Positions 11,926 to 56,375 of a DNA stretch of 64,000 nucleotides are shown here, piece after piece (positions within the stretch are counted from its first letter, which is position 1; the number at the start of each line of letters is the position of its first letter). The stretch covers positions 79,324,142-79,388,141 of the forward strand of contig CM049306.1 of NCBI GenBank assembly GCA_026874595.1, given 5' to 3'. Both the position numbers and the translations under genes were made by a program. The notes under the pieces are model-generated. The model was not told where the DNA came from. It saw only the letters and a program-made list of their open reading frames with translations, and searched no databases. This DNA comes from Sipunculus nudus. Its lineage: Eukaryota > Annelida > Sipuncula > Golfingiida > Sipunculidae.

Positions 11926-12115
11926 ATTTGAACTTGGTCCCTTTTACACTAGAAAGATATGCAGCTGTTAAAGGTCAGCATGCATAAATAAACATATTAT
12001 CCGTTTCTGCTGCCCCCACAATGATGCTCATTCATATGACTGTTTCTACATGCACTCTCTGTCTATCTGTCTGTATCATTTCCATTTCCGGCAAGCGCTC
12101 GACCTCTGGTTGTCT
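11926..12115 (+). repeat. Tail module following satellite array 2
   Basis: Nearly identical to 6531-6700, ending in the TTTCCGGCAAGC half-hairpin near 12,087. After this point the two copies no longer match, so the right edge of the duplicated block lies here. Confidence 0.75.
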
Positions 12116-21017: not shown

Positions 21018-22097
21018 ATGGCTAACAGTGAATGTGTGAGCCACAAACACCTAAAGGTGGCGCTATTAATATGCGTTTTAACATTTGCTATTGCTATTTG
21101 TGGGATATTACAGTCTATAAGCGCGTGCTCATGGAGAAATACAGGCGATGCGAAGAAACTGGAAATACATTATCATCACTTGATCAACAATGGTATAATT
21201 CTGTCCGGTCCGGCTCTGACCAACAGAGCTGGTATTACGTCATGCGTTGGGGGTCACGTGATCGGCTTCCCTCCGGTATGTGGCGCTGATGGTTGTCTTC
21301 AAATTCTTCAAAAGCCGAAACATCCTCAAAGATCGCCAAACGTTAACTTAACGCAAGAGCAAATCAGCCGGATAGAAAAGATAAACGGATGGATGCATAG
21401 TGTGCATATTAATATGGTTTCTCACATAACAGCAATGCAGCATCGATTAGGAATCTACGGATCTGTCGGGGAAATTGGTGTTCACCACGGGAAATTCTCC
21501 AGCGTTCTCGCGCTTAACACGGCCACCCGAGAAGGTGAACGATTTTTCGTTTGCGACATTTTTGAACAGCAGGAACATAATATAGATAAATCAGGCAAAG
21601 GAGACGAGTCAATATTTGCTACAAACTTACAACACGTGGGGTTTTATTTAAATGATGAAGGGACGGATGATACAAGAATTCGTGTGTGGCGAGATAGCTC
21701 CGTCTACCTCAGTAAAGCTGCTTTTCTGGCGATGGGACTGCCTGCATTCAGAATGATTAGTATCGATGGCAGCCACCAGGCGGCGATAGTGTTAAATGAC
21801 ATGGTGAAAGCTGCCTGTGTCTTGAGACACGGGGGTGTGATTATAATGGACGATGTGTTCAATTCCTTCAAGTCAGATGTCACAAAAGCTACCAAAGATT
21901 ACTTTGCATTGTACGGCGAAAGGGGTATAGTGCCATTTTTATTTCTGGAAAACAAACTATACCTTACCACTAAGGAATGGGTCTCTACCTATATTTCATC
22001 AATCAAACAGGTTCAGTTGCCGGGATACAAGCTGGAGATCAGACTGGATGACAAACTAGGTGAAAAATTTAGTTATCTTATGCCATCTAATGTCTGA
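21018..22097 (+). CDS. Membrane-anchored SAM-dependent methyltransferase, single exon
   Basis: A complete 359-residue frame. It begins at an ATG with a purine at -3 and G at +4, followed by a hydrophobic segment at residues 13-35 after a short polar N-terminus, which suggests a type II anchor facing the ER/Golgi lumen. The rest fits a class I methyltransferase of the Methyltransf_24/TylF-CmcI group: motif I GEIGVHHGKFSS at 151-162, an acidic residue after strand 2 at D180, MISIDGSHQ at 246-254, and GGVIIMDDVFNS at 272-283 with the paired Asp 278-279. Family knowledge says such proteins transfer methyl groups to small molecules, sugars or lipids; the substrate cannot be read from sequence. There is no intron in the frame. 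No AATAAA signal is visible within 160 bp downstream. The nearest neighbour is a transposon 156 bp after the stop. Retro-copying or ancient transfer from a microbe are possible origins. Confidence 0.85.
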   Translation: MANSECVSHKHLKVALLICVLTFAIAICGILQSISACSWRNTGDAKKLEIHYHHLINNGIILSGPALTNRAGITSCVGGHVIGFPPVCGADGCLQILQKPKHPQRSPNVNLTQEQISRIEKINGWMHSVHINMVSHITAMQHRLGIYGSVGEIGVHHGKFSSVLALNTATREGERFFVCDIFEQQEHNIDKSGKGDESIFATNLQHVGFYLNDEGTDDTRIRVWRDSSVYLSKAAFLAMGLPAFRMISIDGSHQAAIVLNDMVKAACVLRHGGVIIMDDVFNSFKSDVTKATKDYFALYGERGIVPFLFLENKLYLTTKEWVSTYISSIKQVQLPGYKLEIRLDDKLGEKFSYLMPSNV

Positions 22098-33839: not shown

Positions 33840-36538
33840 CTGACTGTACGTCACCTGAGCTATTGCGATCACCCTTTGTCAGTGGTCCGTCCAGTTGTCC
33901 GCCCGCCTATCCATTAATTTGACACAAATCGTAACCGTTAGACCTAGAAAATTCTAACTGTACTCCTAGGGAGGTCCATGTAAAATCTTCTTGGAGTCTT
34001 GAAATCAGATCTCTGTTACCCATATCCTCCCGAGGTATGGAGCTCGTAAGAACCCCCAAGATTAATTTAAATTTTGATACAAAAGCCTCAGAATCTGAAT
34101 AACTTAAGCATTGATCGTCATGATTATTTGCATGCATGGTGATCATAGAATGTTTCAACAGTTCCTGCAAACTGGTGCGCCACCTGTTTTTTTTTTCGAC
34201 TTTTTGCGCATTTTTTTAAATTTTTAGATCAAATGACTTGATCATCTGTTTACAGAGCACACATTGTCATAGAATCCTCTTACTTGACATACTGGGAGAA
34301 CCATGAAAAATCTCTACAGAAACCTGAAATAGGTCTCTGTTACCAATATCCTGCTCGTAAATACCCCCCCCCCCCAGAATAATTAAAAAAAGCTCCAGTA
34401 TCTGAATAACTAATGCATTGATTGCCATGATTCTTTGCATGCATAGTGATCATGACGTGTTTCATCAGTTTCTGTAGACTTGTGGCGCCACCTGTATTTT
34501 TCGAATTTTTACGCATTTTTTTCTGTATTTTTGAGACCTTCAAATGAAGTGATCGTCCGTTAACATGGCCCAAATTGTAACCGTTAGACCTAGAATCTTC
34601 TAACTTGACATCCTGGGAGGTCCGTAAAAAATCTCTTTTGAAACCTGAAATTACGTCTCTGTTACCCATATCCTCTCTAGCTATTCGTCTCATATGTACC
34701 CCCCCCCCCCAGAATAATTAAAAAATTTATACAAAAGCTCCAGTATCTGTATAACCAATTCACTTATCGCCATTTTTCTTTGCATGTATATTGATCATGG
34801 GGTGTTACATCAGTTCCTGTACACTGGTGGTGCCACCTGTATTTCTTGGTCTATTTTCGAGACCTTCAAATGAAGCGGTCATTTGGTAACAGGACACAAG
34901 TCGTAACCAATTGACCTAGAAAATTCTAACTAGATATCCTTCGAGTTTCTAGGCAACTCTCCTTGGAAACCTGAAATTAGGTCATAATGACCTATATTTA
35001 ACGAATTACGGGCTGAAAACTTGATTTTTAAGCACTCAGTGAGTCAGATAGGGCACATATTGTTTCCATTTGGCCTAGAATCTTGTAACCTGACTTTCAG
35101 GGAGGCCCATAAAAATATCCTTGGACACCTGAAATAAATTCATTGTGACCTATTTTCTGTGAAAGAACATAATTTTAACCCTCTATTAGTCAGATGGGCA
35201 GACCTTGTAGCAGCTGGATGAAGCATTAGGTCACTGTAACCTACCGGTATATCTAAGGTCTATTTGCAAAATGCATGATTTTAAGCACTCTAGAGTCATT
35301 TTACCCATTGTTCAAGGAACCAGCTGAGCGTCATCGCCTATAGGCCACCTGTTTATGCATTACAACGGCGAGTTCAGTTTTGTTATACTGCCAGCAACCC
35401 GACCTCGCAACAAGTGACCCGTTGGTCATGACATTCAGCTGATAAGAACAGTCTATAATGTTGAAATGTTAAAGTGCTAAAAGCACAAAAGTACACATTA
35501 CTCGCACAAGATAGGTCACAGTGGCCAAAATTATGGTATGCGCCAATATTTACCAAAGACCTATCTGGATATTAGGTTAAAGAAATAATTTCTAGGTCAA
35601 GCGGTAATGATTTATGCCCTGTTAACTCCTGGCCAGCTGTAATTTCTTATTACATAAACATACAATAAAGATATGCGTGAAAATATGGAAAATGTATCCG
35701 CTAGACCAAGAATCATCTTACATCACACCCATGGACTTCCATAAAAGAATCTACTTGGAAACCTGAAATAAGGTCACTGTGGCTTAAATCCTATGAGCTA
35801 TGTACATCCAGGGAGGTCCTAGGCAAATCTCCTTGGAAGCCTGAAATTAGGTCATAGTGACCCAAGTTTTGTGAACTACAGGCCAAAAATATGATTTTGA
35901 GCATCACTCAGTCAGACCGGGCACAAATTGTATCCGCTAGCCCTATAATCTTCTAACGCTATACCCATGGAGGTCCATTAAAAATCTCCTTCGAAACGTG
36001 AAATTAGGTCACTGTGACCTAAATCTTTTGAGCTATGGAGCTCGAAAGTACTCTCCAGAATATTTAAAAATGTGATACAAAAGCTCCAGTATCTGAATAA
36101 CTAATGCATTAATTGCAATTATTCTTTTCATGAATATTGATTTTTTTTTAATTTTTTTTTGGGTAAAGGTAACCGCCTCCATTTTTTAATGCTTACTTAA
36201 CTACATATGTGTACATCTGCAGAATTCCAATCTGGCTTCGTACTACGTGACAGGGCAGTATCACATGCTTCCTCTCATTTTATATCCTTGCGTTAACCAG
36301 GCAGGTGACTACTGCACCTGCGGACCCTGGGTGCGTAATCATCCCCATTATTGGGTCATACTACCGAGACCCCGAAAGGCGCACTCGTTTGCGAGTGAAA
36401 TGCGGCCGTTGGGCCGTTGTTAAAATATCGCATGGATCTGTCTGAAATGTGGCAGGCCTATTTATCATAGATAGCCCTTTCAACTGTGGAAGACTGGTGG
36501 CGCCATCTACATTTTCTTTTTTTTTATTACGCATTATA

Positions 36539-36574
<36 letters not shown>

Positions 36575-36780
36575 TTGTACTCAGAAATCACAGCTGGCCA
36601 ACAGTTATCAAGGCACAAATCGTAACTGCTGATGCAAAAACGTTGCAAGACCCTGCGAGGAAATTGATATTAAATAAAATGATTATAGGTCGAACGGTTA
36701 CAATTTGTGACTTTTCGAGCGGACGGACGGACGACGGACAAATGATGATCGCTTAAGCTCAGATGACCATAGTTAATCTG
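33840..36780. mobile_element. TIR element filled with ~320-bp diverged repeats
   Basis: The left terminus (about 33,858-33,900, CACCTGAGCTATTGCGATCA then GGTCCGTCC) and the right terminus (about 36,722-36,765, reverse complement) agree at about 35 of 43 positions. Such ends with GTCCGTCC repeats are common in invertebrate genomes. Between them, a repeat of about 320 bp is marked by GTAACCGTTAGACCTAG-like phrases near 33,931, 34,577 and 34,897, GGTGGCGCCACC-like palindromes near 34,490 and 36,500, and CTCCAGTATCTGAATAAC-like phrases. No transposase frame. The left edge of the 11-kb duplication lies inside this element. Confidence 0.6.
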
Positions 36781-36862
36781 AGATAAAAACCGGGGAAAAA
36801 CTGTGAGTATTTAAGAAATCTTTCTTTCACTGGGCATATCAATTATTCAGTAGAACTTCTGT

Positions 36863-36891
36863 TTAAGGCCACTCTTGGGAAGTGGCCTTAA
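36863..36891. repeat. Perfect 11-bp stem hairpin (copy A)
   Basis: Arms TTAAGGCCACT and AGTGGCCTTAA surround a 7-base loop. The same structure is at 47578-47606 in copy B. It lies just outside the right end of the TIR element. Its role is unknown. Confidence 0.8.
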
Positions 36892-38854
36892 TATAGCAAG
36901 AGACCAGGCGTGAGGACTGGCATTGAGAGACGTCAGCATTTTTCTGTTTCATAACCTGAATTATTTTCACTTACTGTTTGTCGGTTCGATCAAATCTTGT
37001 TTCCAGTTGTCAGTTTGCGTGTGGTGGTCGTGTGACCAGGTACAAGCACGAAGAAAGGTAAAATTCCTCAGTTTGTCTTTTCCTTCTTTTTTTTGGTGAC
37101 TTAATGATAAGGACTAACTAATTAGCATATGTTAATTAACTGCCCAAACACGATAATAAAGCGCCAATGCACACAGCTTAAGGACAAACAAACACACTCG
37201 GGTGTAAACCGGGCCATAGCGCATACTAATGAGGTTGAACCGAGCGTTGAGACTTGGCTAGCTGTCAATCATGTTCCCGTCCTAATGGTAGACCTAAATA
37301 AGGCACTCGTTGGTAAATATGAATGTTGAGCATAATAATAATGCAAAACAGGGTCTCTGGACATGCAAATCACCGAGCTCCGATCACTGGCCGTAATCCT
37401 GGCGAAAACTTGCCATCCGGTTCCCGTAATATGGATTAGAGGAGGCGTTACCGTAATGGACAACAAATCGATCATGAAATGTACCGGCGTAATACTCGGG
37501 ACCAGGAATTCTTACCGTTATTGAGGCGTGCCAGTAAGTAGGAGTTGTACATTAAATATTGGGATGGTTCCCTCTTTGAAATATAATTGTATCCGCTAAT
37601 ATTTCATTTCCCTATATACCTTTACACATGCATTTAAACTAAACTTTGACCGGCTGCGATCAGTGGCGCGAAAGAAAACATAATACAGCCTCCGGTGCTA
37701 CCATAATAAAAGAAGATGGCAACCTAAGTAAATTTATTTATAATTCATTCCAAGTGAATTCTGCTCAACTGATTGCCAGTGTTATCGTATACACAATATC
37801 TCCGGTCAAGTGGTAGGTCTTATTAGGCCAAAATAAAAAAAAAGGTATGGTGCACTTTTTTTCAGAAATCAATGCGGGCGGGCGGTTTTTTTTTTTTATT
37901 TTTAATTTTTTGCTATGTTTCGATAAAAATGACAAATGATTAGGGAAAAGCGTGATAATAACAGATTTATTTTGCTAAACAAGTAAAAGCCCTAAATAAA
38001 AAAAGGAAATTGTATGATTTTATCACCTTGAAAGAAATGTCCGAGCGGTTGCAGCACAAAATTGGTAGGTTTCTATTGAAAATCAAAATAAAAATGTTTA
38101 ATGCGGGGGTTTAAAATTGATGCGGGCGGTGCCTGAGTACCATACCTTTTATTTTTTGGCCTTATGATAACCGGATACCTATGTATTGTATTTATCACAC
38201 ACAGGGATGACAGAATTAGAGCAGATGAGAAAAGAAACTTGTCAACTGGAGCGATTTCGCTGGGATACGGTCACAATGGACAAATGGCTAATAAGATAAT
38301 TCACATTTAATCAGGTGACTATGTAAAAGTATGATAACCATGGTATAACCTTGGATGGTTTTGTCTGTGTGCGCAGAAAAAAAACAAAAGTTTGGCGCCT
38401 TTGTTTAAACTAGCTGAATGAACTCTTTCTCTCATATCTCGATCTCTCTCTCACACACAAACACACACTATATATCTTCCGGATACCCTATAGTGTTCGG
38501 GTGCACAGTCAGATTCCTACGTCATCTACACTTTAAAGCTGGCTTCATGTCAGGCTTAAAAAACAATTTGTTAGACAAGAAGCACTGAGCAGAGCACATG
38601 CAAGGTGTCTCTTTACACTGTTATCATCAATCCTACAAGAGCCTTCGACGCTATCAACAAGATGATTCTTTGCATTATCCTTTGGTGTATCGGATGTCAA
38701 CAGACATTTGTTAAGAATATTGGTAAGAATATTGTGTAATGGGCGGTGCACCCGACATAGTCAACACCTTCATCTGCTTACTGTCTACAGGAGATTGACG
38801 TCATGAAATAGATGGACCTCTGGTATCATCTAGATGGCTACTCTCGTACTACCT
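36892..38854. other. Intergenic DNA in copy A, no gene
   Basis: A 66-codon frame at 37129-37329 is preserved in copy B (47846-48046) with a single residue change, but the whole region is nearly identical between copies, so this is no evidence of coding. It resembles no known family. Contains CT and CA runs near 38,440-38,470. Confidence 0.5.
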
Positions 38855-40976
38855 CAGGGGCGTAGCCAGAGGGGGACCGCAGGGGGCCATGCACCCCCCC
38901 CCCCAAATCCTGGTGGTATCTTTACTCCCCGTCTTCCCGGAATATCACTCAGTCTAATAATGATAAACATTTTTAAAACACAACCATGAAAATCCATGTC
39001 ACTGATATCTGCAGTTTCGGGACTTATTTTCTATACATTTTATTAGGTTTGATCCTGCAGACATTTTTTTGGCTCAGCTGACTACGATCATCTGAGCTAT
39101 ATAGCTATGGTCCTGCCTTCCGTCGGTTAACATGTAAACCGTTTTAAATTGCTGGAGCTAGGAATACAAAATTCAATATTCAGTTAGATGTCATTAAGCT
39201 CTCCTACCAAACCCAAAACTGGGTCACTGCGACTTTGTTCCCTTGAAAAAATTAAGGAAAAACCTCCGTTTTCCAGTAAAAGCCTGCTGTTACACTTCAA
39301 TAGTTTCCTTTTTTAAAATAACAAACGTTTTGTTCATATTTGGCATAGATAATCCTCTATAGATTTCCTGTGTACATGCATAAAATTAGTCAATACAAAT
39401 TGGCATAATTTTTAGAAGTTATGGATCTGAACATAATGTACCTTGTCAAAACATCAGGAAATATGTTTTCTCAATAAACAAGGAAACTGTTAAAGCTTAA
39501 AGCTTTTTTTTCAAGGATAAAAGTTTATCTAATCAAACTTTAATCGTATGCCAGAAGATAGATCAGATATTTTTTTCAAGTTATTAGCATAAATATAATA
39601 CTAGTAACTATACCTTAAATTTTTACCCAAATTTGACCATGGACATTTTTTACCCTGTAAGAACTGATCATTTTTTTTTCACAGAAAAAAAACACATCAT
39701 GATTTATTCTATTGAAATCTGAAAGAAATTATTCAATTACAGTAGCTTTTATTCAAGTTTTCAGACACCATGTGTAGTATAGTTTATAACAAGTCAACCC
39801 AGCCCGGGAAGGTGCAGTGAGTGTCGGAGCCCTCACCTAGTCACCTGTATTGGAACTTACTTCAAACAACGCAGCTAGTTCCCGCTGCTCAGCAGAGCTA
39901 GGCTTCTCCTACAACCCCCCCCCCCCCCTTCTCAATGGAGAGGATGTATAAATAAGTTATGTTATATGTTATTATTTTCTAGGTTAAATTAATTTTTTTC
40001 TAGACTTTTTATAGATAGTGGATTTTTTGAGTGCACATTGAATTATTAGTGTTTGGTTTTGCTGTAAAAGATTGAATGTACATGTTGAGAGGAATTAATT
40101 GCTCCAGAAGAGGTCAAAACTGTTTGCTTTTATTTTTTAACATGTGTGTCAGTATATAATTATAGTTGAGTTAATATTTAGCATAATGATGTTATTTGTT
40201 CCTAATCTAAGCAGGAGTGCCTATACCTGATTTGAAAAGGGTATTTCTTACCAATTTTACTCATTTTTTTATTTTAGTAAATAAAATGAAGCATGTACAT
40301 TGAACTAAAAACCCTATGTATAAACCTTTTTTGGGGAATAGTGATTCAAGGAATAATCTAGAATATACCATATTTTAGCGTTTCATCTTTAAAAAATAAT
40401 TTTCTTTTCAGTTAAGTAAAAGCACTTTATGATTTTAAAAAAAAAGTAGTAAAATAAATTTGTATGCTCAATCTGATATGACCAAACTGAGGATAAATAA
40501 TGATGCAGCTTATAATTCTAAATTAACCTATATTTGCAATTTTTTTGGTATTACATAATTGTCATATTTGTAAATATGAAAATTCAATATGATAACATTT
40601 ATTCATTAAAAAATCGTGACTTCCCTGCCAAACATGGACATGCTAAAAAATGTTTTAATATTAATATAAAATTTCCCTGTCTCAGCAGAAAGTGAAATAA
40701 ACCTATCAGTCGTTTTTGTCAATTTGTGTCTATCTGTAAATATTTCTTATGCAACACGGTATCTCGGAAACCTATACTGCATGGTTCCATGGTAGTCATG
40801 TCAGATTATTAGTTTGGCAATCAAATATTTGGTATTTGATTATCACCAACAACAGGATCATGTTCTCTGAATTTTGGTAATACTAATATATAAAAACAAT
40901 AACAATGGGAATAAGTATATTTTACATTTGCTTACAACTTCCAAAATATACCTGACCGCCGTGACCCATGGGTCCC

Positions 40977-41025
<49 letters not shown>

Positions 41026-41077
41026 TTGCCTTTGCCAAATATTTCGGCCCCCTCCCTCAATCCTAGCTACGCCCCTG
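38855..41077. mobile_element. CAG-ended element, possibly hAT-like (copy A)
   Basis: The left end is CAGGGGCGTAGCCAGAGGGG and the right end, reverse-complemented, is CAGGGGCGTAGCTAGGATTG. They agree for the first 15 or so bases with one change, and G-rich (left) and C-rich (right) runs follow inside. No 8-bp duplication is apparent at the flanks, so the two ends may not be from one insertion. Inside, near 39,068, sits a terminus related to the TIR family at 33.8 kb, which suggests nesting. No transposase frame. Confidence 0.5.
40979..41023. repeat. (AT)n microsatellite, length differs between duplicate copies
   Basis: About 45 bp here. The equivalent site in copy B, near 51,717-51,751, is a shorter interrupted run. 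Confidence 0.9.
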
Positions 41078-41860
41078 CGACCGCTCCTTTTATCCAGAAC
41101 AAAGACCCCATTAAGATCCTCCATGAAACACTTTGCACCTCAGATCGTGCGCTCATGACAACAGCCACTCATGACCACAGCCATGATACACACGACTAAG
41201 GATTATTGGACTGATAACCTACTTTAAGTCTTTACACTAGTCTGTATACAGACATCCACACTTTAGAGCTGGCTTCATGTCAGTGGCTGTCTATCAATCA
41301 TTCTTCGATATGTAAGTTCTGGAGACGCCCAAAACCCCATCCGTCCATTTAAATAGGCCTATCGGAACAGGCTATAGTACTGCACTGCAATGGGGATCCT
41401 TCCTATTGCACTGCCATCGGTGCCAACAGCCACGAAAGAAGTGGTAACCAACCCAAGCATAAGGCAGCGGCATCATGAGATCAAAGTACATGGAAAGCGC
41501 CATCTATCGCGATTCAGGAAATGTACGGGAAAATAAAATAAAATTCAAACCGACAGAAATTGGTATAAACAGGCAAATTTCTCCTTCTTTTTTGATTAAA
41601 AATACTCCTTTTTTAACATGACACACCTGTATCTCTCCTAATTACAGCCATAGGAGAATATCAAATTGCCAAGATATATGGTCATGCCAGAGTTCTTATT
41701 TACTCACGCCATGCAGTAGGTCACATATTTTCTATGGTCTTTGGCCGACGTCAGGTGCCGTTTTTTGTTTTGCAGATAACACCAACGGTCCAGTCAATAA
41801 CCACGGTTGTTTAGTACATAGTTTTGTCACAAGCAGGTTTGCTTCTGACGAGTAGAAATC
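41078..41860 (+). promoter_or_regulatory. Upstream region of first deaminase gene
   Basis: The 780 bp between the CAG-ended element and the start codon are conserved in copy B (51,802-52,584). I see no convincing TATA box at a fixed distance and cannot place the transcription start. A non-coding first exon is possible. No other gene lies here. Confidence 0.35.
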
Positions 41861-44800
41861 ATGGGGGTGCAACATGTGGTATCGCTGGCAGCACTTTTCA
41901 CTTTGCTAGTCGCAGCAAGTTGTTTCCCCAGAAATGAGTATGAATACGCGATTAACCGAGACTGGCTGAAGTTTGAGGAGAGCCTTTTCCGACTGAAAGA
42001 TACGACATTGACTCCGGTACGTACTATGTATTTTTAATCCAGCAAACTTAACATTATCGGTCGGTCATATTTCTTCTTTTTCAATCATCTATTTAATTTA
42101 TGTACGACACTAACGAGTTATTGAACGTGTATCGTAGGAAAAATCACCTTCATTGCCTTCATTAGGGCAATTTATGGCAGCAGGATTATAAATTATGTGT
42201 GTTAAAGTTACAAATAAACTTGACATGTTGCGTTTAAAGTTCCCAAAAACGTAGCATAAATTGCTTTGTATGTTTGTGCAGCAATAACCACAAATGACTT
42301 TAAATGGCGCCCAAAAGAGATCAATGTTCGTCTTAAGGATCAGCATGATAAAGAACTGATATAGGATCACTCCGAGACTATTTATGGCTGCCTCCGCCTG
42401 TCCTTGGCATATTGCACTTCCTCATTAATATTATTTCTATGCGATTTTGGGGAGCGTTGTGGTCGATAGTAAAGAGCAATGCTGCAGCCTTTGATCTCTG
42501 ATTAAACAGGCAACAGTAAATAGTAGTAGTTGTGGCTGATTCCTGCTCTCCGGTTTTAACTATGTGATGATGCATCGTCCGCCGTCCACTGTCATTTTCC
42601 TACTTTTTGTCCGCAAGGAAGCATCTTGCTAATCGCTGAAACAGTTTGCATTTAGCGTACACTTAAAGCACGGTTTTCTCTGCTGTTTTCCAACGCTTCT
42701 TATTAAAATACAGTCACCACACGGTGAATTACACTTACAGACACTTAAGTTGTTTATTTTTCAATCAAAAGATGTATTGCAGACACACCAGTTTTTACCA
42801 TAATAAGCAAAGATGCTGAATATGTTTCATTTTAGGATGAGGCCACAGTAGACCAGTACCTGAGTTACCTGAAATGGCAGGAGTTTCAGGCCACACGGCC
42901 GGCAATCCCGCCCCTTCGGCCAATAGAGGAAACCCTTCCATACATCCTGCAATCTGAACTTTTTCAAGTCTTAAAACCACTGCCGAAAGGAGGTGATATG
43001 CATGGCCATGAGAGTGAGTATACATGCAAACACAACAAACATATGATTGTGTCCTTCAGAGCGGATAACTCTTAATCTTCTGTCTGGGAAAACCAATAAT
43101 TACCTCATATTAAGCAATTTTGAAATGTTTATATATCGCTTATTTTCTTTTTTTTTATAGATCATATGTTGAGTAAACGAGTGCTACTTGACATAGTTTG
43201 GGAATCGGAAGATTTTCAGCACCTGTACATGTTACCTGAGAATGCATCAACTCCGTATCGGCTCGACTTCTTCATTAATCCTCCAGAAGGGGAAGGCTGG
43301 TTTAACGTCAGAGACAGCGGTTTATCCAAAGAAGACATCTACCGGACCCAAGTGTTCATTGAAATCATGGACGACAATGCCAAACGGTACCCCACGGACA
43401 GCCGGGAACGATGGAAGCAAATGAATCCTCTTTGGGGTAGAGGTTCGTATCAGCTAATCAGCAATGTTAAGATCAGACCAGAGTACGTGTGGAAAATGTT
43501 AGAGACTGCAATGGAAGATGGGGTACAATACATGGAGACTCGACGTAGTTTGGGAGGTTATATGTACGTGCTGGACCCCTCTCCAGAATACGAACCAAAC
43601 AACGGTAAACATGTAATTGATGTGTATGATGGAGAACTCGATGTCAATATTACCTTTGATGTGGTGTCAAATTTTACACAACACCATCCGTCCTTCATTG
43701 GTTATAAGAATATCATACATTCGAGTCGCTGGAGACCCGCAGACCAGATACAACAAGAATTAGAACGCGCGCTCAGATTCCATCAGAAGTTTCCAGATAA
43801 AATCGTTGGCTACGATCTGGTGTCAGAAGAGGATAATGGCCGTTCCCACCTCTTCTTCTTGAAGAACTTTCTAACCCTTTACGATGATCAGACACAAAGA
43901 AGTAAGTTTGATTTGTACTTACACACAGCAGAGACTAATTTCCCAAATGACTTGCGCACGAGTGACCCTGACGACGACCCAGTTGCAACTTTGGAGAATA
44001 CATATGAATCTATCCTCCTTGGTGCAAACAGAGTGGGTCACGGCATTGGTTTCTTCAAGCATCCGTATTTACTGGAGATTATCAAGGAGAGGCGAGTTGC
44101 CATAGAAACATGCCCAGTCAGCAATCAGCTTCTTGGATTTATGGCAGATTTGCGAAATCACCCTGCACTGAACTACATCCGCTCTGGGATACCTGTTGTT
44201 ATGGGATCAGACGATCCTGGGACCTTTGGGTACGACCATTTCACCGTCGATTGGTACATGGCTTATTTGGGATGGGGCCTCGACTTGGCCGACCTTAGGC
44301 AGTTAGCAAGAGATTCGTTAAACCACAGTGCTCTGGACGTGCAGGAGAAAGTTGAAGCCTTCATCAAATGGGAACTCAGTTGGACGCAGTTCATCACAGA
44401 CACACGAGTTCGCGCCTGTTCCACAACCTTTCCTGGTCCTCCAGTGTTTTCTCGCATACTTCCTGATGAAGGAAGTCTGGATGATCCTACGAAGGTCTAT
44501 ATATTTGGCCATGGATTTGAAATTGGTATTTGCAGAATTGTGCTCTGCCGGTTCGGGGACCTTATATCTCCAGCTACTAGATTGGTATCAAATCAGCTGA
44601 TCATCTGCGATTCTCCAGTGCCCATTGCATCAAAAATAAAGGAAGAATCGAATGACTACAGATATCATCCGAAATTTGGTTTCTTGACGAAAGGCTCTCA
44701 GAAGACTAATAAACAGGACACCACTGTTCCAGTGCTGGTTTCATTTGACGGAGGCCAGAACTTTGTCGATGTGGGTCACAACTTCACATATAGATACAAC

Positions 44801-44905
44801 ACGTATATACCACAACAGAATGAGGTGCACTCTCGGGGCACGGCCTTGGGTTCACTTATTGGTTTTACTGTTCTTTTAATCCCATTGGTTAATTATCTGA
44901 TCTAA
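41861..44905 (+). CDS. Secreted ADGF/ADA2-type adenosine deaminase with IPT/TIG domain and GPI-like tail (copy A)
   Basis: Three exons, 41861-42016, 42836-43013 and 43161-44905, encode 692 residues. Donors are GTACGT and GTGAGT, acceptors TTTTAG and TTATAG. Intron phases are 0 and 1; codon 112 (Asn) is split. The start has A at -3 and G at +4. Residues 1-20 form a signal peptide. The deaminase part shows PKGGDMHGH (zinc-type His108 and His110), MET at 236-238, HTAET (His366, catalytic-type Glu369), VGHG (His405) and GSDDP (Asp462-463). The family converts extracellular adenosine to inosine and acts in growth and immune signalling. Residues ~539-658 (44441-44800) form an IPT/TIG domain, with Cys574 and Cys594 and the SFDGGQNF...NFTY ending. 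The last ~20 residues are hydrophobic with no charge, preceded by SRGTA, as in GPI signals. N-glycosylation sequons at 139, 274, 282, 499 and 652 support secretion. Human ADA2 is about 510 residues, so the extra length is the TIG and tail. Departures: HTAET for the usual HAGET, and Asn at the third position after the HxH. Confidence 0.92.
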
Positions 44906-45108
44906 TTAAAATTAAAAAGAAGCCACAGCTTGGTTCCACAATTAGCGGAGCTACCAGTAACACATAATGTGATCGGTCAGTGGCAATGTAACCTTCCATT
45001 ATCTCGGATATTTTACTATGATTGTTCCCCATTCGTACAGTCATTAAAGGGGCCCAACCACCTATAAAGCATGTTGAATTAACATGAAAAAAAGCTGCTT
45101 CCCTTTAA

Positions 45109-45114
45109 AATAAA
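45109..45114 (+). promoter_or_regulatory. Polyadenylation signal AATAAA, first deaminase gene
   Basis: Lies about 204 bp after the stop codon and is conserved in copy B. A second AATAAA about 545 bp further on, near 45,656, is an alternative. Confidence 0.5.
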
Positions 45115-45671
45115 GTCTGAACCTGCAAAAATATTGCCTTGAAATCGTTTGCTTACTCCTGTAAACGAGTGTTAAAAACGAGACCGGGCGCGATCATATG
45201 TGTCAACATAAACACAGCGCCTTGGGCTGTGTGCTTTGCAGAGCCACAATACGTGTCAATCAGGAGGTCCCCTAACTGACTTAGCCCAAAAAAATATAAT
45301 ACATGTTCCCGGAGGGTGAAACACCGCATTTTGTGGCTCCCAATTGGAACACCAGTCACGCGGCCTTGTTATCTTAAACATACACACGTGGACTGTGTTT
45401 ATCAACACGCAGAGCCATTACAAGGGGATAAAGAGCCGTGTGCGAGGTACTGAGGTTGGTTGCTGGGATGGTTTTGCTGGGATACTTTCGTATAAAGCAA
45501 AACTGAACTGATAGTGTGAAAGAATAGGCTCAATATTGCTCCTGATTATGTCTCTTTAAGTTCGGAAAGAAAGACTGAAGCGTCTTTCAGTTTACATATC
45601 TGTATAAGAGAAACAGGAATAATACTATGTATATATAACCAAATCATTAGTACAAAATAAAGTAGACTTTA
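45115..45671. other. 3' flank of first deaminase gene up to the duplication junction
   Basis: Conserved in copy B. The 68-codon minus-strand frame at 45153-45359 is not supported as a gene. Ends at the blunt junction 45671/45672. Confidence 0.5.
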
Positions 45672-46859
45672 CATATCCTCTCTAGCTATTCGTCTCGTAT
45701 GTACCCCCCCCCCCCCCCCAGAATAATTAAAAAATTGATACAAAAGCTCCAGTATCTGTATAACCAATTCACTTATCGCCATTTTTCTTTGCATGTATAT
45801 TGATCATGGGGTGTTACATCAGTTCCTGTACACTGGTGGTGCCACCTGTATTTCTTGGTCTATTTTCGAGACCTTCAAATGAAGCGGTCATTTGGTAACA
45901 GGATACAAGTCGTAACCAATTGACCTAGAAAATTCTAACTAGATATCCTTCGAGTTTCTAGGCAACTCTCCTTGGAAACCTGAAATTAGGTCATAATGAC
46001 CTATATTTAATGAATTACGGGCTGAAAACATGATTTTTAAGCACTCAGTGAGTCAGATAGGGCACATATTGTTTCCATTTGGCCTAGAATCTTGTAACCT
46101 GACTTTCAGGGAGGCCCATAAAAATATCCTTGGACACCTAAAATAAATTCATTGTGACCTATTTTCTGAAAAGTCTGTGAAAGAACATAATTTTAACCCT
46201 CTATTAGTCAGATGGGCAGACCTTGTAGCAGCTGGATGAAGCATTAGGTCACTGTAACCTACCGGTATATCTAAGGTCTATTAGCAAAATGCATGATTTT
46301 AAGCACTCTAGAGTCATTTTACCCATTGTTCAAGGAACCTTGAATTCAGCTGAGCGTCATCGCCTATAGGCCACCTGTTTATGCATTACAACGGCGAGTT
46401 CAGTTTTGCTATACTGCCAGCAACCCGACCTCGCAACAAGTGACCCGTTGGTCATGACATTCAGCTGATAAGAACAGTCTATAATGTTGAAATGTTAAAG
46501 TGCTAAAAGCACAAAAGTACACATTACTCGCACAAGATAGGTCACAGTGGCCAAAATTATGGTATGCGCCAATATTTACCAAAGACCTACCTGGATATTA
46601 GGTTAAAGAAATAATTTCTAGGTCAAGCGGTAATGATTTATGCCCTGTTAACTCCTGGCCAGCTGTAATTTCTTATTAAATAAACATACAATAAAGATAT
46701 GCGTGAAAATATGGAAAATGTATCCGCTAGACCAAGAATCATCTTACATCACATCCATGGACTTCCATAAAAAAATCTACTTGTAAACCTGAAATAAGGT
46801 CACTGTGGCTTAAATCCTATGAGCTATGTACATCCAGGGAGGTCCTAGGCAAATCTCCT

Positions 46860-49566
46860 GTGATTTTTTTTTTGTGTAAAGGTAACCGCCTCCATTTTTT
46901 AATGCTTACTTAACTACATATGTGTACATCTGCAGAATTCCAATCTGGCTTCGTACTACGTGACAGGGCAGTATCACATGCTTCCTCTCATTTTATATCC
47001 TTGCGTTAACCAGGCCAGGTGACTATTGCACCTGCGGACCCTGGGTGCGTAATCATCCCCATTATTGGGTCATACTACCGAGACCCCGAAAGGCGCACTC
47101 GTTTGCAAGTGAAATACGGCCGTTGGGCCGTTGTTAAAATATCGCATGGATCTGTCTGAAATGTGGCAGGCCTATTTATCATAGATAGCCCTTTCAACTG
47201 TGGAAGACTGGTGGCGCCATCTACATTTTCTTTATTTTTTACGCATTATAATTATTATTATTATTATTATTATCATTATTTTGTACTCAGAAATCACAGC
47301 TGGCCAACAGTTATCAAGGCACAAATCGTAACTGCTGACGCAAAAACGTTGCAAGACCCTGCGAGGAAATTGATATTAAATAAAATGATTATAGGTCGAA
47401 AATGATTATAGGTTACAATTTGTGACTTTTCGAGCGGACGGACGGACGACGGACAAATGATGATCGCTTAAGCTCAGATGACCATAGCTAATCTGAGATA
47501 AAAACCGGGGAAAAACTGTGAGTATTTAAGAAATCTTTCTTTCACTGGGCATATCAATTATTCAGTAGAACTTCTGTTTAAGGCCACTCTTGGGAAGTGG
47601 CCTTAATATAGCAAGAGACCAGGCGTGAGGACTGGCATTGAGAAACGTCAGCATTTTTCTGTTTCATAACCTGAATTATTTTCACTTACTGTTTGTCGGT
47701 TCGATCAAATCTTGTTTCCAGTTGTCAGTTTGCGTGTGGTGGTCGTGTGACCAGGTACAAGCACGAAGAAAGGTAAAATTCCGCAGTTTGTCTTTTCCTT
47801 CTTTTATTTTTGGTGACTTAATGATAAGGACTAACTAATTAGCATATGTTAATTAACTGCCCAAACACGATAATAAAGCGCCAATGCACACAGCTTAAGG
47901 ACAAACAAACACACTCGGGTGTAAACCGGGCCATAGCGCATACTAATGAGGTTGAACCGAGCGTTGAGACTTGGCTAGCTGTCAATCATGTTCCCGTCCT
48001 AATGGTAGACCTAAATCAGGCACTCGTTGGTAAATATGAATGTTGAGCATAATAATTATGTAAAACAGGGTCTCTGGACATGCAAATCACCGAGCTTCGA
48101 TCACTGGCCGTAATCCTGGCGAAAACTTGCCATCCGGTCCCCGTAATATGGATTAGAGGAGGCGTTACCGTAATGGACAACAAATCGATCATGAAATGTA
48201 CCGGCGTAATACTCGGGACCAGGAATTCTTTCCGTTATTGAGGCGTGCCAGTAAGTAGGAGTTGTACATTAAATATTAGGATGGTTCCCTCTTTGAAATA
48301 TAATTGTATCCGCTAATATTTCATTTCCCTATATACCTTTACACATGCATTTAAACTAAACTTTGACCGGCTGCGATCAGTGGCGCGAAAGAAAACATAA
48401 TACAGCCTCCCGTGCTACCATAATAAAAGAAGATGGCAACCTAAGTAAATTTATTTATAATTCATTCCAAGTGAATTCTGCTAAACTGATTGCCAGTGTT
48501 ATCGTATACACAATATCTCCGGTCAAGTGGTAGGTCTTATTAGGCCAAAATAAAAAAAGGTATGGTGCACTTTTTTTCAGAAATCAATGCGGGCGGGCGG
48601 TTTTTTTTATTTTTAATTTTTTGCTATGTTTCGATAAAAATGACAAATGATTAGGGAAAAGCATGATAATAACAGATTTATTTTGCTAAACAAGTAAAAA
48701 CCCTAAATAAAAAAAGGAAATTGTATGATTTTATCACCTAGAAAGAAATGTCCGAGCGGTTGCAGCACAAAATTGGTAGGTTTCTATTGAAAATCAAAAT
48801 AAAAATGTTTAATGCGGGGGTTTAAAATTGATGCGGGCGGTGCCTGAGTACCATACCTTTTATTTTTTGGCCTTATGATAACCGGATACCTATGTATTGT
48901 ATTTATCATACACAGGGATGACAGAATTAGAGCAGATGAGAAAAGAAACTTGTCAACTGGAGCGATTTCGCTGGGATACGGTCACAATGGACAAATGGCT
49001 AATAAGATCATTCACATTTAATCAGGTGACTATGTAAAAGTATGATAACCATGGTATAACCTTGGATGGTTTTGTCTGTGTGTGCAGAAAAAAAAACAAA
49101 AGTTTGGCGGCTTTGTTTAAACTAGCTTAATGAACTCTTTCTCTCATATCTCGATCTCTCTCACACACACAAACTTACGCTATATATCTTCCGGATACCC
49201 TATAGTGTTCGGGTGCACAGTCCGATTCCTACTTCATCTACACTTTAAAGCTGGCTTCATGTCAGGCTTAAAAAACAATTTGTTAGAAATGAAGCACTGA
49301 GCAGAGCACATGCAAGGTGTCTCTTTACACTGTAATCATCAATCCTACAAGGGCCTTCGACGCTATCAACAAGATGATTCTTTGCATTATCCTTGGGTGT
49401 ATCGGATGTCAACAGACATTTGTTAAGAATATTGGTAAGAATATTGTGTAATGGGCGGTGCACCCGACATAGTCAACACCTTCATCTGCTTACTGTCTAC
49501 AGGAGATTGACGTCATGAAATAGATGGACCTCTGGTATCATCTAGATGGCTACTCTCGTACTACCT
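46860..49566. other. Intergenic DNA in copy B, no gene
   Basis: Counterpart of about 36,140-38,854: an ATT-rich run near 47,251-47,281, the right terminus of the TIR element near 47,434-47,490, the hairpin at 47578-47606 and the same unassigned 66-codon frame. Nothing additional is seen. Confidence 0.5.
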
Positions 49567-51801
49567 CAGGGGCGTAGCCAGAGGGGGGCCGCAGGGGGCC
49601 ATGCCCCCCCCCCCCAAATCCTGGTGGTATCTTTACTCCCCGTCTTCCCGGAATATCACTCAGTCTAATAATGATAAACATTTTTAAAACACAACCATGA
49701 AAATCCATGTCACTGATATCTGCAGTTTCGGGACTTATTTTCTATACATTTTATTAGGTTTGATCCTGCAGACATTTCTTTGGCTCAGCTGACTACGATC
49801 ATCTGAGCTATATAGCGATGGTCCTGCCTTCCGTCGGTTAACATGTAAACCGTTTTAAATTGCTGGAGCTAGGAATACAAAATGCAATATACAGTTAGAT
49901 GTCCTTAAGCTCTCCTACCAAACCCAAAACTGGGTCACTGCGACTTTGTTCACTTGAAAAAATTAAGGAAAAACCTCCGTTTTCCAGTAAAAGCCTGCTG
50001 TTACACTTCAAGAGTTTCCCTTTTAAAATAACAGACGTTTTGTTTATATTTGGCATAGATAATCCTCTATCGATTTCCTGTGTACATGCATAAAATTAGT
50101 CATTACAAATTGGCATAATTTTTAGAAGTTATGGATCTGAACATAATGTACCTTGTCGAAACATCAGGAAATATGTTTTCTCAATAAACAAGGAAACTGT
50201 TAAAGCTTAAAGCTTTTTTTTCAAGGATAAAAGTTTATCTCATCAAACTTTAATCGTATGCCAGAAGATAGATCAGATATTTTTTTTCAAGTTATTAGCA
50301 TAAATATAATACTAGTAACTATACCTTAAATTTTGCTCAAATTTGACCATGGACATTTTTTACCCTGTAAGAACTGATCATTTTTTTTCACAGAAAAAAA
50401 AACACATCATGATTTATTCTATTGAAATCTGAAAGAAATTATTCATTTACAGTAGCTTTATTTCAAGTTCTCAGACACCATGTGTAGTATAGTTTATATC
50501 AAGTCAACCCAGCCCGGTAAGGTGCAGCGAGTGTCGGAGCCCTCACCTAGTCACCTGTATTGGAACTTACTTTAGTCAACGCAGCTAGCTCCCGTTGCTC
50601 AGCAGAGCTAGGCTTCTCCTACAACCCCCCTTCTCAATGGAGAGGATGTATAAATAAGTTATGTTATATGTTATTATTTTCTAGGTTAAATTATTTTTTT
50701 TTCTAGACTATTTATAGATAGTGGATTTTTTTCTGTATTACATGCATGGGGTTACAATGAGTGCACATTGAATTATTAGTGTTTGGTTTTGCTGTAAAAG
50801 ATTGAATGTACATGTTGAGAGGAACTAATTGCTACAGAAGAGGTACAAACTGTTTGCTTTTATTTTTTAACATGTGTGTCAGTATATAATTATAGTTGAG
50901 TTAATATTTAGTATAATGATGTTATTTGTTCCTAATCTAAGCAGGAGTGCCTATACCTGATTTGAAAAGGGTATTTCTTACCAATTTTACTCATTTTTTT
51001 TTATTTTAGTAAATAAAATGAAGCATGTACATTGAACTAAAACCCTATGTATAAACCTTTTTTGGGGGGAATAGTGATTCAAGGAATAATCTAGAATATA
51101 CCATATTTTAGCGTTTCATCTTTAAAAAATAATTTTCTTTTCAGTTAAGTTAAAGCACTTTATGATTTAAAAAAGTAGTAAAATAAATTTGTATGCTCAA
51201 TCTGATATGACCAAACTGAGGATAAATAATGATGCAGCTTATAATTCTAAATTAACCTATATTTGCAATTTTTTTTTTTTTGGTATTACATATTTGTCAT
51301 ATTTGTAAATATGAAAATTCAATATGATAACATTTATTCATTAAAAAATCGTGACTTCCCTGCCAAACATGGATATGCTAAAAAATGGTTTAATATTAAT
51401 ATAAAATTTCCCTGTCTCAGCAGAAAGTAAAATAAAGCTATCAGTCGTTTTTGTCAAAATGTGTCTATCTGTAAATATTTCTTATGCAACACGGCATCTC
51501 AGAAACCTATACTGCATGGTTCCATGGTAGTCATGTCAGATTATTAGTTTGGCAATCAAATATTTGGTATTTGATTATCACCAATAACAGGATCATGTTC
51601 TCTGAATTTTGGTGATGCTAATATATAAAAACAATAACAATGGGAATAAGTATATTTTACATTTGCTTACAACTTACAAAATATACCTGACCGCCGTGAC
51701 CCATGGGTCCCCTTTTTATATATGTATATTCATTATATATATATATATATTGCCTTTGCCAAATATTTCGGCCCCCTCCCTCAATTCTGGCTACGCCCCT
51801 G
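49567..51801. mobile_element. CAG-ended element, possibly hAT-like (copy B)
   Basis: Counterpart of 38,855-41,077 with the same ends and the same flanks, so it was present before the segmental duplication. Confidence 0.5.
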
Positions 51802-52584
51802 CGACCGCTCCTTTTATCCAGAACAAAGACCCCATTAAGATCCTCCAGGAAACACTTTGCACCTCAGATCGTGCGCTCATGACAACAGCCACTCATGACC
51901 ACAGCCATGATACACATGACAAAGGATTATTGGACTGATAACCTACTTTAAGTCATTACACTAGTCTGTATACAGACGTCTACACTTTAGAGCTGGCTTC
52001 ATGTCAGCGGCTGTCTATCAATCATTCTTCGATATGTAAGTTCTGGAGACACCCAAATCCCAATCCGTCTATTTAAATAGGCCTATCGGAATAGGCTATA
52101 GTACTGCACTGCAATGGGGATCCTTCCTATTGCACTGCCATCGGTGTAAACAGCCACGAAAGAAGTGGTAACCTACCCAAGCATAAGGCAGGAGCATCAT
52201 GAGATCAAAGTACATGGAAAGCGCCATCTATCGCGATTCAGGAAATGTACGGGAAAATAAAATAAAATTCAAACCGACAGAAATTGGTATAAACAGGCAA
52301 ATTTCTCCTTCTTTTTTTATTAAAAATACTCCTTTTTTTAACATGACACACCTGTATCTCTCCTAATTACAGCCATAGGAGAATATCAAATTGCCAAGAT
52401 ATATGGTCATGCCAGAGTTCTTATTTACTCACGCCATGCAGTAGGTGACATATTTTCTATGGTCTTTAGCCGACGTCAGGTGCCGTTTTTTGTTTTGCAG
52501 ATAACACCAACGGTCCAGTCAATAACCACGGTTGTTCAGTACATAGTTTGGTCACATTAGGTTTGCTTCTGACGAGTAGAAATC

Positions 52585-55500
52585 ATGGGGGCGCAACATG
52601 TGGTATCGCTGGCAGCACTTTTCACCTTGCTAGTCGCAGCAAGTTGTTTCCCCAGAAATGAGTATGAATACGCGATTAACCGAGACTGGCTGAAGTTTGA
52701 GGAGAGCCTTTTCCGCCTGAAAGATACGACATTGACACCGGTACGTACTATGTATTTTTAATCCAGCAAACTTAACATTATCGGTCGGTCATATTTCTTC
52801 TTTTTCAATCATCTATTTAATTTATGTACGACACTAACGAGTTATTGAAATGTGTATCGTAGGAAAAAATCACCTTCATTGCCTTCATTAGGGCAATTTA
52901 TGGCAGCAGGATTATAAATTATGTGTGTAAAAGTTACAAATAAACTTGAGATGTTGCGTTTCAAGTTCCCAAAAACGTAGCGTAAATTGCTTTGTATGTT
53001 TGTGCAGCAATAACCACAAATGACTTTAAATGGCGCCCAAACGAGATCAATGTTCGTCTTACGGATCAGCATGATAAAGAACTGAAATAAGGTCACTCCG
53101 AGACTATCAATGGCTGCCTCCGCCTGTCCTTGGCATATTGCACTTCCTCATTAATATTATTTCTGTGCGATTTTGGGGAGCGTTGTGATCGATAGTAAAG
53201 AGCAATGCTGCAGCCTTTGATCTCTGATTAAACAGGCAACAGTAAATAGCAGTAGTTGTGGCTGATTCCTGCTCTCCGGTTTCAACTATGTGATGACGCA
53301 TCGTCCGCCGTCCACTGTCATTTCCCTACTTTTTGCTAATCGCTGAAACAGTTTGCATTTAGCGTACAATTAAAGCACGGTGTTCTCTGCTGTTTTCCAA
53401 CGCTTCTTATTAAAATACAGTCACCACACGGTGAATTACACTTACAAATACTTTAGTTGTTTATTTTTCAATCAAAAGATGTATTGCAGACACACCAGTT
53501 TTTACCATAATAAGCAAAGATGCTGAATATGTTTCATTTTAGGATGAGGCCACAGTGGACCAGTACCTGAGTTACCTGAAATGGCAGGAGTTTCAGGCCA
53601 CACGGCCGGCAATCCCGCCCCTTCGGCCAATAGAGGAAACCCTTCCTTACATCCTGCAATCTGAACTTTTTCAAGTCTTAAAACCACTGCCGAAAGGAGG
53701 TGATATGCATGGCCATGAGAGTGAGTCTACATGCAAACACAACAAACATATGATTGTGTCCTTCAGAGACCGATAACTCTTAATTTTCTGTCTGGGACAA
53801 CCAATAATTACCTCATATTAAGCAATTTTGAAATGTTTATATATCGCTTATTTTCTTTTTTTATAGATCATATGTTGAGTAAACGAGTGCTACTTGACAT
53901 AGTTTGGGAATCGGAAGATTTTCAGCACCTGTACATGTTACCTGAGAATGCATCAACTCCGTATCGGCTCGACTTCTTCATTAATCCTCCAGAAGGGGAA
54001 GGCTGGTTTAACGTCAGAGACAGCGGTTTATCCAAAGAAGACATCTACCGGACCCAAGTGTTCATTGAAATCATGGACGACAATGCCAAACGGTACCCCA
54101 CGGACAGCCGGGAACGATGGAAGCAAATGAATCCTCTTTGGGGTAGAGGTTCGTATCAGCTAATCAGCAATGTTAAGATCAGACCAGAGTACGTGTGGAA
54201 AATGTTAGAGACTGCAATGGAAGATGGGGTACAATACATGGAGACTCGACGTAGTTTGGGAGGTTATATGTACGTGCTGGACCCCTCTCCAGAATACGAA
54301 CCAAACAACGGTAAACATGTAATTGATGTGTATGATGGAGAACTCGATGTCAATATTACCTTTGATGTGGTGTCAAATTTTACACAACACCATCCGTCCT
54401 TCATTGGTTATAAGAATATCATACTTTCGAGTCGCTGGAGACCCGCAGACCAGATACAACAAGAATTAGAACGCGCGCTCAGATTCCATCAGAAGTTTCC
54501 AGATAAAATCGTTGGCTACGATCTGGTGTCAGAAGAGGATAATGGCCGTTCCCACCTCTTCTTCTTAAAGAACTTTCTAACCCTTTACGATGATCAGACA
54601 CAAAGAAGTAAGATTGATTTGTACTTACACACAGCAGAGACTAATTTCCCAAATGACTTGCGCACGAGTGACCCTGACGACGACCCAGTTGCAACTTTGG
54701 AGAATACATATGAATCTATCCTCCTTGGTGCCAACAGAGTGGGTCACGGCATTGGTTTCTTCAAGCATCCGTATTTACTGGAGATTATCAAGGAGAGGCG
54801 AGTTGCCATAGAAACATGCCCAGTCAGCAATCAGCTTCTTGGATTTATGGCAGATTTGCGAAATCACCCTGCACTGAACTACATCCGCTCTGGGATACCT
54901 GTTGTAATGGGATCAGACGATCCTGGGACCTTTGGGTACGACCATTTCACCGTCGATTGGTACATGGCTTTTTTGGGATGGGGCCTCGACTTGGCCGACC
55001 TTAGGCAGTTAGCAAGAGATTCGTTAAACCACAGTGCTCTGGACGTGCAGGAGAAAGTTGAAGCCTTCATCAAATGGGAACTCAGTTGGACGCAGTTCAT
55101 CACAGACACACGAGTTCGCGCCTGTTCCACAACCTTTCCTGGTCCTCCAGTGTTTTCTCGCATACTCCCTGATGAAGGAAGTCTGGATGATCCTACGAAG
55201 GTCTATATATTTGGCCATGGATTTGAAATTGGTATTTGCAGAATTGTGCTCTGCCGGTTCGGGGACCTTATATCTCCAGCTACTAGATTGGTATCAAATC
55301 AGCTGATCATCTGCGATTCTCCAGTGCCCATTGCGTCAAAAATAAAGGAAGAATCGAATGACTACAGATATCATCCGAAATTTGGTTTCTTGACGAAAGG
55401 CTCTCAGAAGACTAATAAACAGGACACCACTGTTCCAGTCCTGGTTTCATTTGACGGAGGCCAGAACTTTGTCGATGTGGGTCACAACTTTACATATAGA

Positions 55501-55611
55501 TACAACACGTATATACCACAACAGAATGAGGTGCACTCTCGGGGCACGGCCTTGGGTTCACTTATGGGTTTTACTGTTCTTTTAATCCGATTGGTTAATT
55601 ATCTGATCTAA
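52585..55611 (+). CDS. Secreted ADGF/ADA2-type adenosine deaminase with IPT/TIG domain (copy B)
   Basis: Exons 52585-52740, 53543-53720 and 53867-55611 have the same lengths and phases as the upstream gene and again give 692 residues. An open frame runs upstream of exon 3 from 53731 into intron 2, but the conserved TTATAG acceptor at 53861-53866 and the intact exons 1-2 make the spliced model correct. Predicted protein differences from the upstream copy are V3A, H298L, F361I, Y480F, I678M and P686R. All catalytic-type residues (His108, His110, His366, Glu369, His405, Asp462-463) and the TIG cysteines are kept. F361I lies five residues before His366. P686R places an Arg inside the otherwise uncharged C-terminal hydrophobic segment, which could weaken GPI attachment. 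The absence of stops or frameshifts argues that both genes are functional or only just duplicated. Confidence 0.92.
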
Positions 55612-55812
55612 TTAAAATGAAAAAGAAGCCACAGCTTGGTTCCACAATTAGCGGAGCTACCACTAACATATAATGTAATCGGTTAGTGGCAATATAACCT
55701 TCCATTATCTCGAATTATACTATGATTGTTCCCCATTCGTATAGTCATTAAAGGGGCCTAATCACCTATAAAGCATGTTGAATTAACATGAAAAAAAGCT
55801 GCTTCCCTTTAA

Positions 55813-55818
55813 AATAAA
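55813..55818 (+). promoter_or_regulatory. Polyadenylation signal AATAAA, second deaminase gene
   Basis: Same context and almost the same distance from the stop as in copy A. Confidence 0.5.
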
Positions 55819-56375
55819 GTCTGAACCTGCAAAAATATTGCCTTGAAATCGTTTGCTTACTCCTGTAAACGAGTGTTAAAAACGAGACCGGGCGCGATCA
55901 TATGTGTCAACATAAACACAGCGCCTTGGGCTGTGTGCTTTGCAGAGCCACAATACGTGTCAATCAGGAGGTCCCCTAACTGACTTAGCCCAAAAAAATA
56001 TAATACATGTTCCCGGAGGGTGAAACACCGCATTTTGTGGCTCCCAATTGGAAGACCAGTCACGCGGCCTTGTTATCTTAAACATACACACGTGGACTGT
56101 GTTTATCAACACGCAGAGCCATTACAAGGGGATAAAGAGCCGTGTGCGAGGTACTGAGGTTGGTTGCTGGGATGGTTTTGCTGGGATACTTTCGTATAAA
56201 GCAAAACTGAACTGATAGTGTGAAAGAATAGGCTCAATATTGCTCCTGATTATGTCTCTTTAAGTTCGGAAAGAAAGACTGAAGCGTCTTTCAGTTTACA
56301 TATCTGTATAAGAGAAACAGGAATAATACTATGTATATATAACCAAATCATTAGTACAAAATAAAGTAGACTTTA

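Follow-up and report, generated by a model that had tools for sequence, protein, structure and literature searches.

The sipunculid worm Sipunculus nudus carries a gene in which an ADGF/ADA2-type deaminase runs on, within a single exon, into a TIG-like region followed by a C-terminus that is hydrophobic and free of charge. The gene, here called ADGF-TIG, occupies positions 41861–44905 on the + strand of the window, by which we mean the whole 64,000-nt stretch of DNA that was analysed. Its layout (leader, ADGF/ADA2-type deaminase, TIG-like region, uncharged hydrophobic end) had been noticed by an earlier, sequence-only reading of the window and is confirmed here. The same layout recurs in three genes on the same chromosome: the window gene, a tandem copy and a more distant paralog. 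The single gene of the earlier reading is thus real, but the tandem copy at 52585–55611 and the older paralog had been overlooked. Our best explanation, to which we give a probability of about 0.6, is that the protein is a divergent ADGF/ADA2 relative that has acquired a TIG domain and a hydrophobic membrane-attachment tail and that would act as a surface purine deaminase.

Gene structure, tandem copy and paralog

The ADGF-TIG gene has three exons separated by GT-AG introns, with a coding sequence of 2079 nt, including the stop, that specifies 692 amino acids. An open frame was kept by 6 of the 24 GT/AG combinations tried, and the splice model used here was chosen because the paralog has matching junctions and phases. 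From residue 113 on, deaminase and TIG-like region are read from one exon as a single stop-to-stop frame of 593 codons, as the sequence-only reading had stated. A chance open reading frame was considered and rejected, given these 593 codons and their conservation in the paralog. The features of the window gene and of the duplication that contains it are as follows.

34667–45671, no strand assigned: duplicated unit, first copy (self-comparison of the window)
41861–42016, + strand: exon 1, hydrophobic leader and start of the mature protein (gene model; phase-0 intron as in the paralog)
42836–43013, + strand: exon 2, N-terminal region and HGHE motif (gene model and alignment)
43001–43009, + strand: zinc-type residues H108 and H110 (HGHE motif, exon 2)
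43161–44905, + strand: exon 3, remaining deaminase, TIG region, linker, hydrophobic tail and stop (open frame, gene model and Pfam)
43922–44215, + strand: active-site-type residues H366, E369, H405, D462 and D463 (alignment to ADA2, Helix AMPD and the Aplysia/Helix chimera)
44432–44797, + strand: TIG-like region, residues ~536–657, with a variable insert loop at ~598–628
44837–44902, + strand: uncharged hydrophobic C-terminus, residues 671–692, with candidate GPI omega site S669-R670-G671 (general GPI signal rule)
45672–56375, no strand assigned: duplicated unit, second copy (self-comparison of the window)
52585–52740, + strand: copy 2, exon 1
53543–53720, + strand: copy 2, exon 2
53867–55611, + strand: copy 2, exon 3, with TIG region and tail (I678M, P686R)

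The two units, each of about 11 kb, lie head to tail, with 34667–35833 matching 45672–46859 at 97.1% identity and 36152–45671 matching 46865–56375 at 96.9%. The protein of copy 2 (52585–55611) differs from that of copy 1 at 6 of 692 residues (V3A, H298L, F361I, Y480F, I678M and P686R), and the complete coding sequences are separated by 12 synonymous and 6 replacement changes (dN/dS 0.14). By region, there are three synonymous and three replacement changes in residues 112–530, four and none in residues 531–660, and none and two in residues 661–692; these changes are few in number, and the regional differences are given as raw counts. The introns of the two copies differ by 2.9% and 4.1% and the flanks by 1.6–2.8%. 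The second copy could have arisen by recent duplication, or it could represent a haplotype left uncollapsed in the assembly.

The paralog lies ~110 kb away, at C1:79249823–79256483, and is 62% identical to the window gene over residues 1–557/558 of the exon-3 product. A simple count puts synonymous sites between the two at or close to saturation. Identity is 66% (275/418) in the deaminase, 61% (38/62) and 63% (19/30) in the two halves of the TIG core, 23% (7/30) in the insert loop and 18% (6/34) in the linker and tail, from which we conclude that the TIG core has been kept about as strictly as the enzyme and that the tail has kept its hydrophobic nature only. Five cysteines of the mature protein (429, 531, 569, 574 and 594) are common to both. 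Intron 1 of the paralog, near C1:79256333, is apparently of the GC-AG type (GCAAGT donor), compared with GT-AG in the window genes.

Elsewhere in the window, a 360-residue stop-to-stop frame at 21015–22094 (+ strand) contains a Methyltransf_24 domain (E 3.8e-12) and is hydrophobic over a stretch close to the N-terminus, and arrays of a ~148-base tandem repeat occupy two related blocks at 4974–6457 and 10867–11874, with 5503–6695 matching 10919–12110 at 92.0%.

The deaminase and its relatives in the genome

Profile searches and aligned residues bear out the earlier identification of an ADGF/ADA2-type deaminase with zinc-type residues. Pfam A_deaminase matches the window protein above its cut-off (E 6.3e-22), and the NCBIfam model TIGR01431, 'adenosine deaminase-related growth factor', matches residues 46–525 over positions 19–477 of its 479 (E 3.8e-72). 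The Pfam search that the sequence-only reading had suggested was fruitful in this first part; its second model, A_deaminase_N, was not found among the matches to the window protein at E<=10. The N-terminal region is nevertheless covered, by TIGR01431 from residue 46 and by phmmer from residue 24. The E-value of TIGR01431 compares with 5.1e-21 for TIGR01430 and 1.6e-07 for TIGR01429, placing the protein nearest to ADGF rather than to ADA1 or AMPD. Its TIGR01431 score, 243.6 bits, lies below the curated cut-off of 315, which we take as a sign of divergence, and we class the protein as a divergent relative rather than a standard ADGF member.

Three PDB sequences match at E<=1e-20, all of ADGF type: an Aplysia/Helix chimera (best), Helix pomatia AMP deaminase (AMPD; second) and human ADA2. 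These chains are 508–541 residues long, and their matches to the window protein end 20–24 residues before the chain end. Because they stop so shortly after the deaminase, the C-terminal extension of the window protein falls outside the usual ADGF protein.

The HxH, H, E, H and DD positions of the family are kept in the alignment as H108, H110, H366, E369, H405, D462 and D463, among which H108, H110, H366 and D462 correspond by motif to the zinc ligands and E369, H405 and D463 to the catalytic residues. The passage of PMC9598359 that lists the residues of an abalone ADGF gives four catalytic residues, including G325; when the window protein is compared by motif with that list, all four zinc residues are kept, as are three of the four catalytic ones, and G325 is unplaced, the abalone sequence lying outside our alignment. 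Two changes fall at or beside the active site. The residue after HxH is Glu instead of the Asp found in ADA2, Helix AMPD and the Aplysia/Helix chimera, and the motif HAGE reads HTAE. The Ala of this motif is shared with the chimera; in the paralog the motif is HTGE. From these residues we judge the window protein to be a probably active, if divergent, ADGF relative. Its substrate may be either adenosine or AMP: the Helix enzyme is likewise an ADGF and acts preferentially on AMP, and the 'adenosine removal' proposed by the sequence-only reading is for that reason not certain as a function.

Across the genome, PF00962 gave 14 matches and a search with the paralog protein gave 5. At least four genes are of ADGF type: the two in the window, the paralog, and a fourth at C1:53395257–53396531. 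The last has no TIG in the ~10 kb downstream by tblastn, bar one chance-level piece (24.5%, E 2.3). It is probably broken or decaying, because its frame is interrupted by a TAA and the second Asp of its SDDP motif is replaced by Ala; the part beyond the stop codon matches TIGR01431 (E 1.6e-58). Eight PF00962 matches lie on C5, of which the two that were scanned are both ADA1-like (TIGR01430), and one lies on C8, outside the classified set, as do the other six on C5. A further match, on the 112-kb contig C123, sits among genes that look bacterial by eye (MFS transporter-like, HemN-like and adenosine deaminase), and this contig may have entered the assembly from a contaminant or a symbiont. Pattern scans for relatives returned 16 and 125 pattern matches in prokaryotic contigs and, in one viral scan of eight, 46 in viral contigs, with none confirmed in either.

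The TIG region and the two hydrophobic ends

The earlier assignment of the extension to TIG holds by way of the paralog, the score of the window protein itself being just below the threshold. Against a Pfam TIG (PF01833) cut-off of 20.9 bits, the window protein scores 13.9 bits as a whole and 18.5 bits (E 0.002) as an isolated C-terminal fragment of 164 residues, compared with 34.6 bits for exon 3 of the paralog and 37.6 bits for its fragment. The two stretches are 52% identical, and the call stands in the window protein because the homologous stretch of the paralog passes the cut-off. The lack of any TIG hit, which the sequence-only reading had named as one way of being refuted, was thus not observed. 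A call by motif resemblance alone was set aside in favour of paralog, profile and shuffle tests.

When the 1.43-Gb genome was searched with the window C-terminus, four matches were obtained: the two window copies, the paralog and a protein encoded on C14 (E 0.3). This only non-ADGF match is itself a TIG-repeat protein, four of whose repeats match Pfam TIG (E 1.2e-52). Comparison of this region, as a profile, with five C14 repeats gave a probability of 78% and a score of 33.4, for which the best of 60 column shuffles reached 18.9 and the reversed profile 16.6. A PDB sequence search with the C-terminal fragment returned eight sequences at E<=10, the best at E 0.2 and not one of them named as a TIG protein, and a search with a two-sequence profile returned seven, led by the gamma heavy chain of 7k5b (E 0.009). 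An AlphaFold model of the C-terminal 164 residues alone, computed with no alignment, has a mean pLDDT of 38.8, too poor to show an immunoglobulin fold; in this low-quality model the TIG part is drawn with low-confidence strands and the tail, whose last 14 residues score 84–89, as a helix. The C14 gene (C14:47996567), fibrocystin-like by eye, has a frame of 528 codons in which there are at least four TIG repeats.

Both ends of the protein are hydrophobic in all three genes. At the N-terminus, the core LAALFTLLVA makes residues ~1–21 of the window protein a probable signal peptide. At the C-terminus, the last 22 residues of copy 1 are uncharged and mostly hydrophobic and follow S-R, in agreement with the sequence-only reading. 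Copy 2 has an Arg at 686 (P686R), and the paralog ends in GILFLYALTSVFIQFCRVH, with a polar CRVH that is less typical of a GPI signal. The hydrophobic character of this end persists in the three genes despite the low linker and tail identity between the paralogs. A GPI signal requires a signal peptide, a small-residue omega site, a short spacer and a hydrophobic end. Copy 1 is compatible with this rule at S669-R670-G671; copy 2 has the Arg in its tail, and the paralog its polar end. The leader and hydrophobic end kept in three genes make surface tethering plausible. Membrane attachment is the reading that we favour, with a GPI anchor more likely than a transmembrane helix lacking a cytoplasmic part, and with real doubt for copy 2.

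Taken together, these features suggest how a tethered deaminase could have arisen and might work. The TIG region and tail were probably gained in a common ancestor of the three present genes. The leader would direct the protein into the secretory pathway, where the hydrophobic end would be exchanged for a GPI anchor or would itself hold the protein in the membrane. Lying between membrane and enzyme, the TIG domain may serve as a spacer, a docking module or both, and the zinc deaminase, if active as its kept catalytic residues suggest, would act at the cell surface to remove adenosine or AMP from the extracellular space. Purine signalling would then be switched off locally, with the protein as a stationary, surface-bound sink for purines.

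Alternative readings and known systems

Alternatives to this proposal concern either the attachment of the protein, its chemistry or the gene itself. With the same domain layout, the protein could be secreted and soluble, its hydrophobic end a leftover or only weakly directing it to membranes, at least in copy 2. The paralogs share only 6 of 34 linker and tail positions, as given above, both changes between the tandem copies in residues 661–692 are replacements, with P686R one of them, and one passage of PMC9598359 describes the abalone ADGF as secreted; but the end stays hydrophobic in all three genes, and the PDB chains of ADGF type, stopping 20–24 residues past the matched deaminase, offer no ancestral tail to inherit, so that we hold a soluble form to be unlikely. 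An ecto-AMP deaminase, converting AMP to IMP as the Helix pomatia ADGF does and pre-empting adenosine formation, would be compatible with the tethered layout. The two best PDB matches are the chimera and Helix AMPD, and excerpted text of PMC10358891 puts deamination of adenosine by the latter at 0.04 of the AMP rate; the same text, however, has adenosine as the preferred substrate of Aplysia and human ADGF, and we regard AMP specificity as possible though doubtful. A deaminase that is weak or dead, leaving the protein to act as a surface ligand or receptor through its TIG domain and deaminase fold, could be read from the Glu for Asp after HxH and from HTAE for HAGE. This seems improbable: the four zinc residues and the catalytic E, H and D are kept by motif relative to the residue list in that passage of PMC9598359, the Ala of HxAE is shared with the chimera and absent from the HTGE of the paralog, and the deaminases of the paralogs remain 66% identical while synonymous sites are saturated.

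It is very improbable that the gene model or assembly is at fault, with the TIG region lying outside the mature transcript or the tandem copy being an uncollapsed second haplotype. The divergence of the tandem copies in introns and flanks is of a size (a few per cent) that is usual between alleles in many marine invertebrates, but in three genes the TIG region shares an open frame with the deaminase, one of these genes being a paralog distinct enough to show that the region is conserved, and the haplotype idea touches copy number only, not the fusion. A further elaboration of the tethered purine deaminase would have its TIG domain dock it to one particular partner, which might be a receptor, matrix or the cell next to it, uniting site recognition and purine erasure in one protein and making a contact-dependent growth factor of a diffusible one. 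The sequence-only reading had spoken of adhesion or receptor binding, which draws on the roles of TIG domains in other proteins; we consider such docking tentative and rather unlikely.

ADGFs are described mainly as secreted tuners of extracellular adenosine, and a fused binding domain and tail would make of them fixed local purine sinks in one polypeptide. Such proteins would allow the need for diffusion in the 'growth factor' action of ADGFs to be tested cleanly, with the three genes as natural variants: a clean tail, a tail with an arginine and a diverged tail.

In open-access papers, most subscription journals being outside this scope, we found no ADGF-TIG layout; passages of PMC4460706 and PMC12711200 contain nothing on TIG domains or ADGF anchoring, and one passage of the latter leaves a membrane-bound factor open. 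As the TIG domain of the paralog exceeds the Pfam cut-off, domain-layout databases (InterPro) may well list the combination without comment. Drosophila MSI is an ADGF. The statement of the sequence-only reading that ADGFs are normally soluble needs qualifying, since PMC9598359 speaks in one passage of 'secretory or transmembrane-type ADGFs', lists IDGF within the ADGF subfamily and refers to a paper (Matsushita et al. 2000) whose title presents the male-specific IDGF of Drosophila (MSI) as membrane-bound. MSI resembles the proposed window protein in being membrane-bound, a likeness drawn from that title alone. Because membrane-bound relatives of ADGF are already on record, the new element here is the TIG fusion.

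With ADGF/ADA2 (CECR1; TIGR01431), represented by human ADA2 (PDB 3LGD), Helix pomatia AMP deaminase (9NTE) and the Aplysia/Helix chimera (9NTI), the window protein shares a hydrophobic leader, a near full-length profile match and the HxH...H..E...H...DD residues. It differs from them in its additional TIG domain and hydrophobic tail, in Glu for Asp after HxH and in a score below the NCBI cut-off. It also lacks any cysteine between HxH and residue 429, unlike ADA2, which has a disulfide in the corresponding region.

TIG/IPT domains occur in plexins, Met-like receptors and fibrocystin-like proteins, extracellular settings like that proposed for the window protein; to our knowledge, none of these surface proteins has an attached enzyme of the deaminase kind. 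CD73 and Drosophila NT5E, ecto-5'-nucleotidases presented in excerpted literature as GPI-linked, are likewise purine ectoenzymes but carry out the opposite step, making adenosine. In vertebrates, according to a passage of PMC8650063, ADA is held on the surface by CD26 and affects lymphocyte adhesion. The CD26/DPP4–ADA pair thus places a deaminase at the cell surface, as is proposed here, but with two proteins. The deaminase bound by CD26 is ADA1, a member of another subfamily. If the window protein is tethered, one chain would do what vertebrates do with ADA and CD26.
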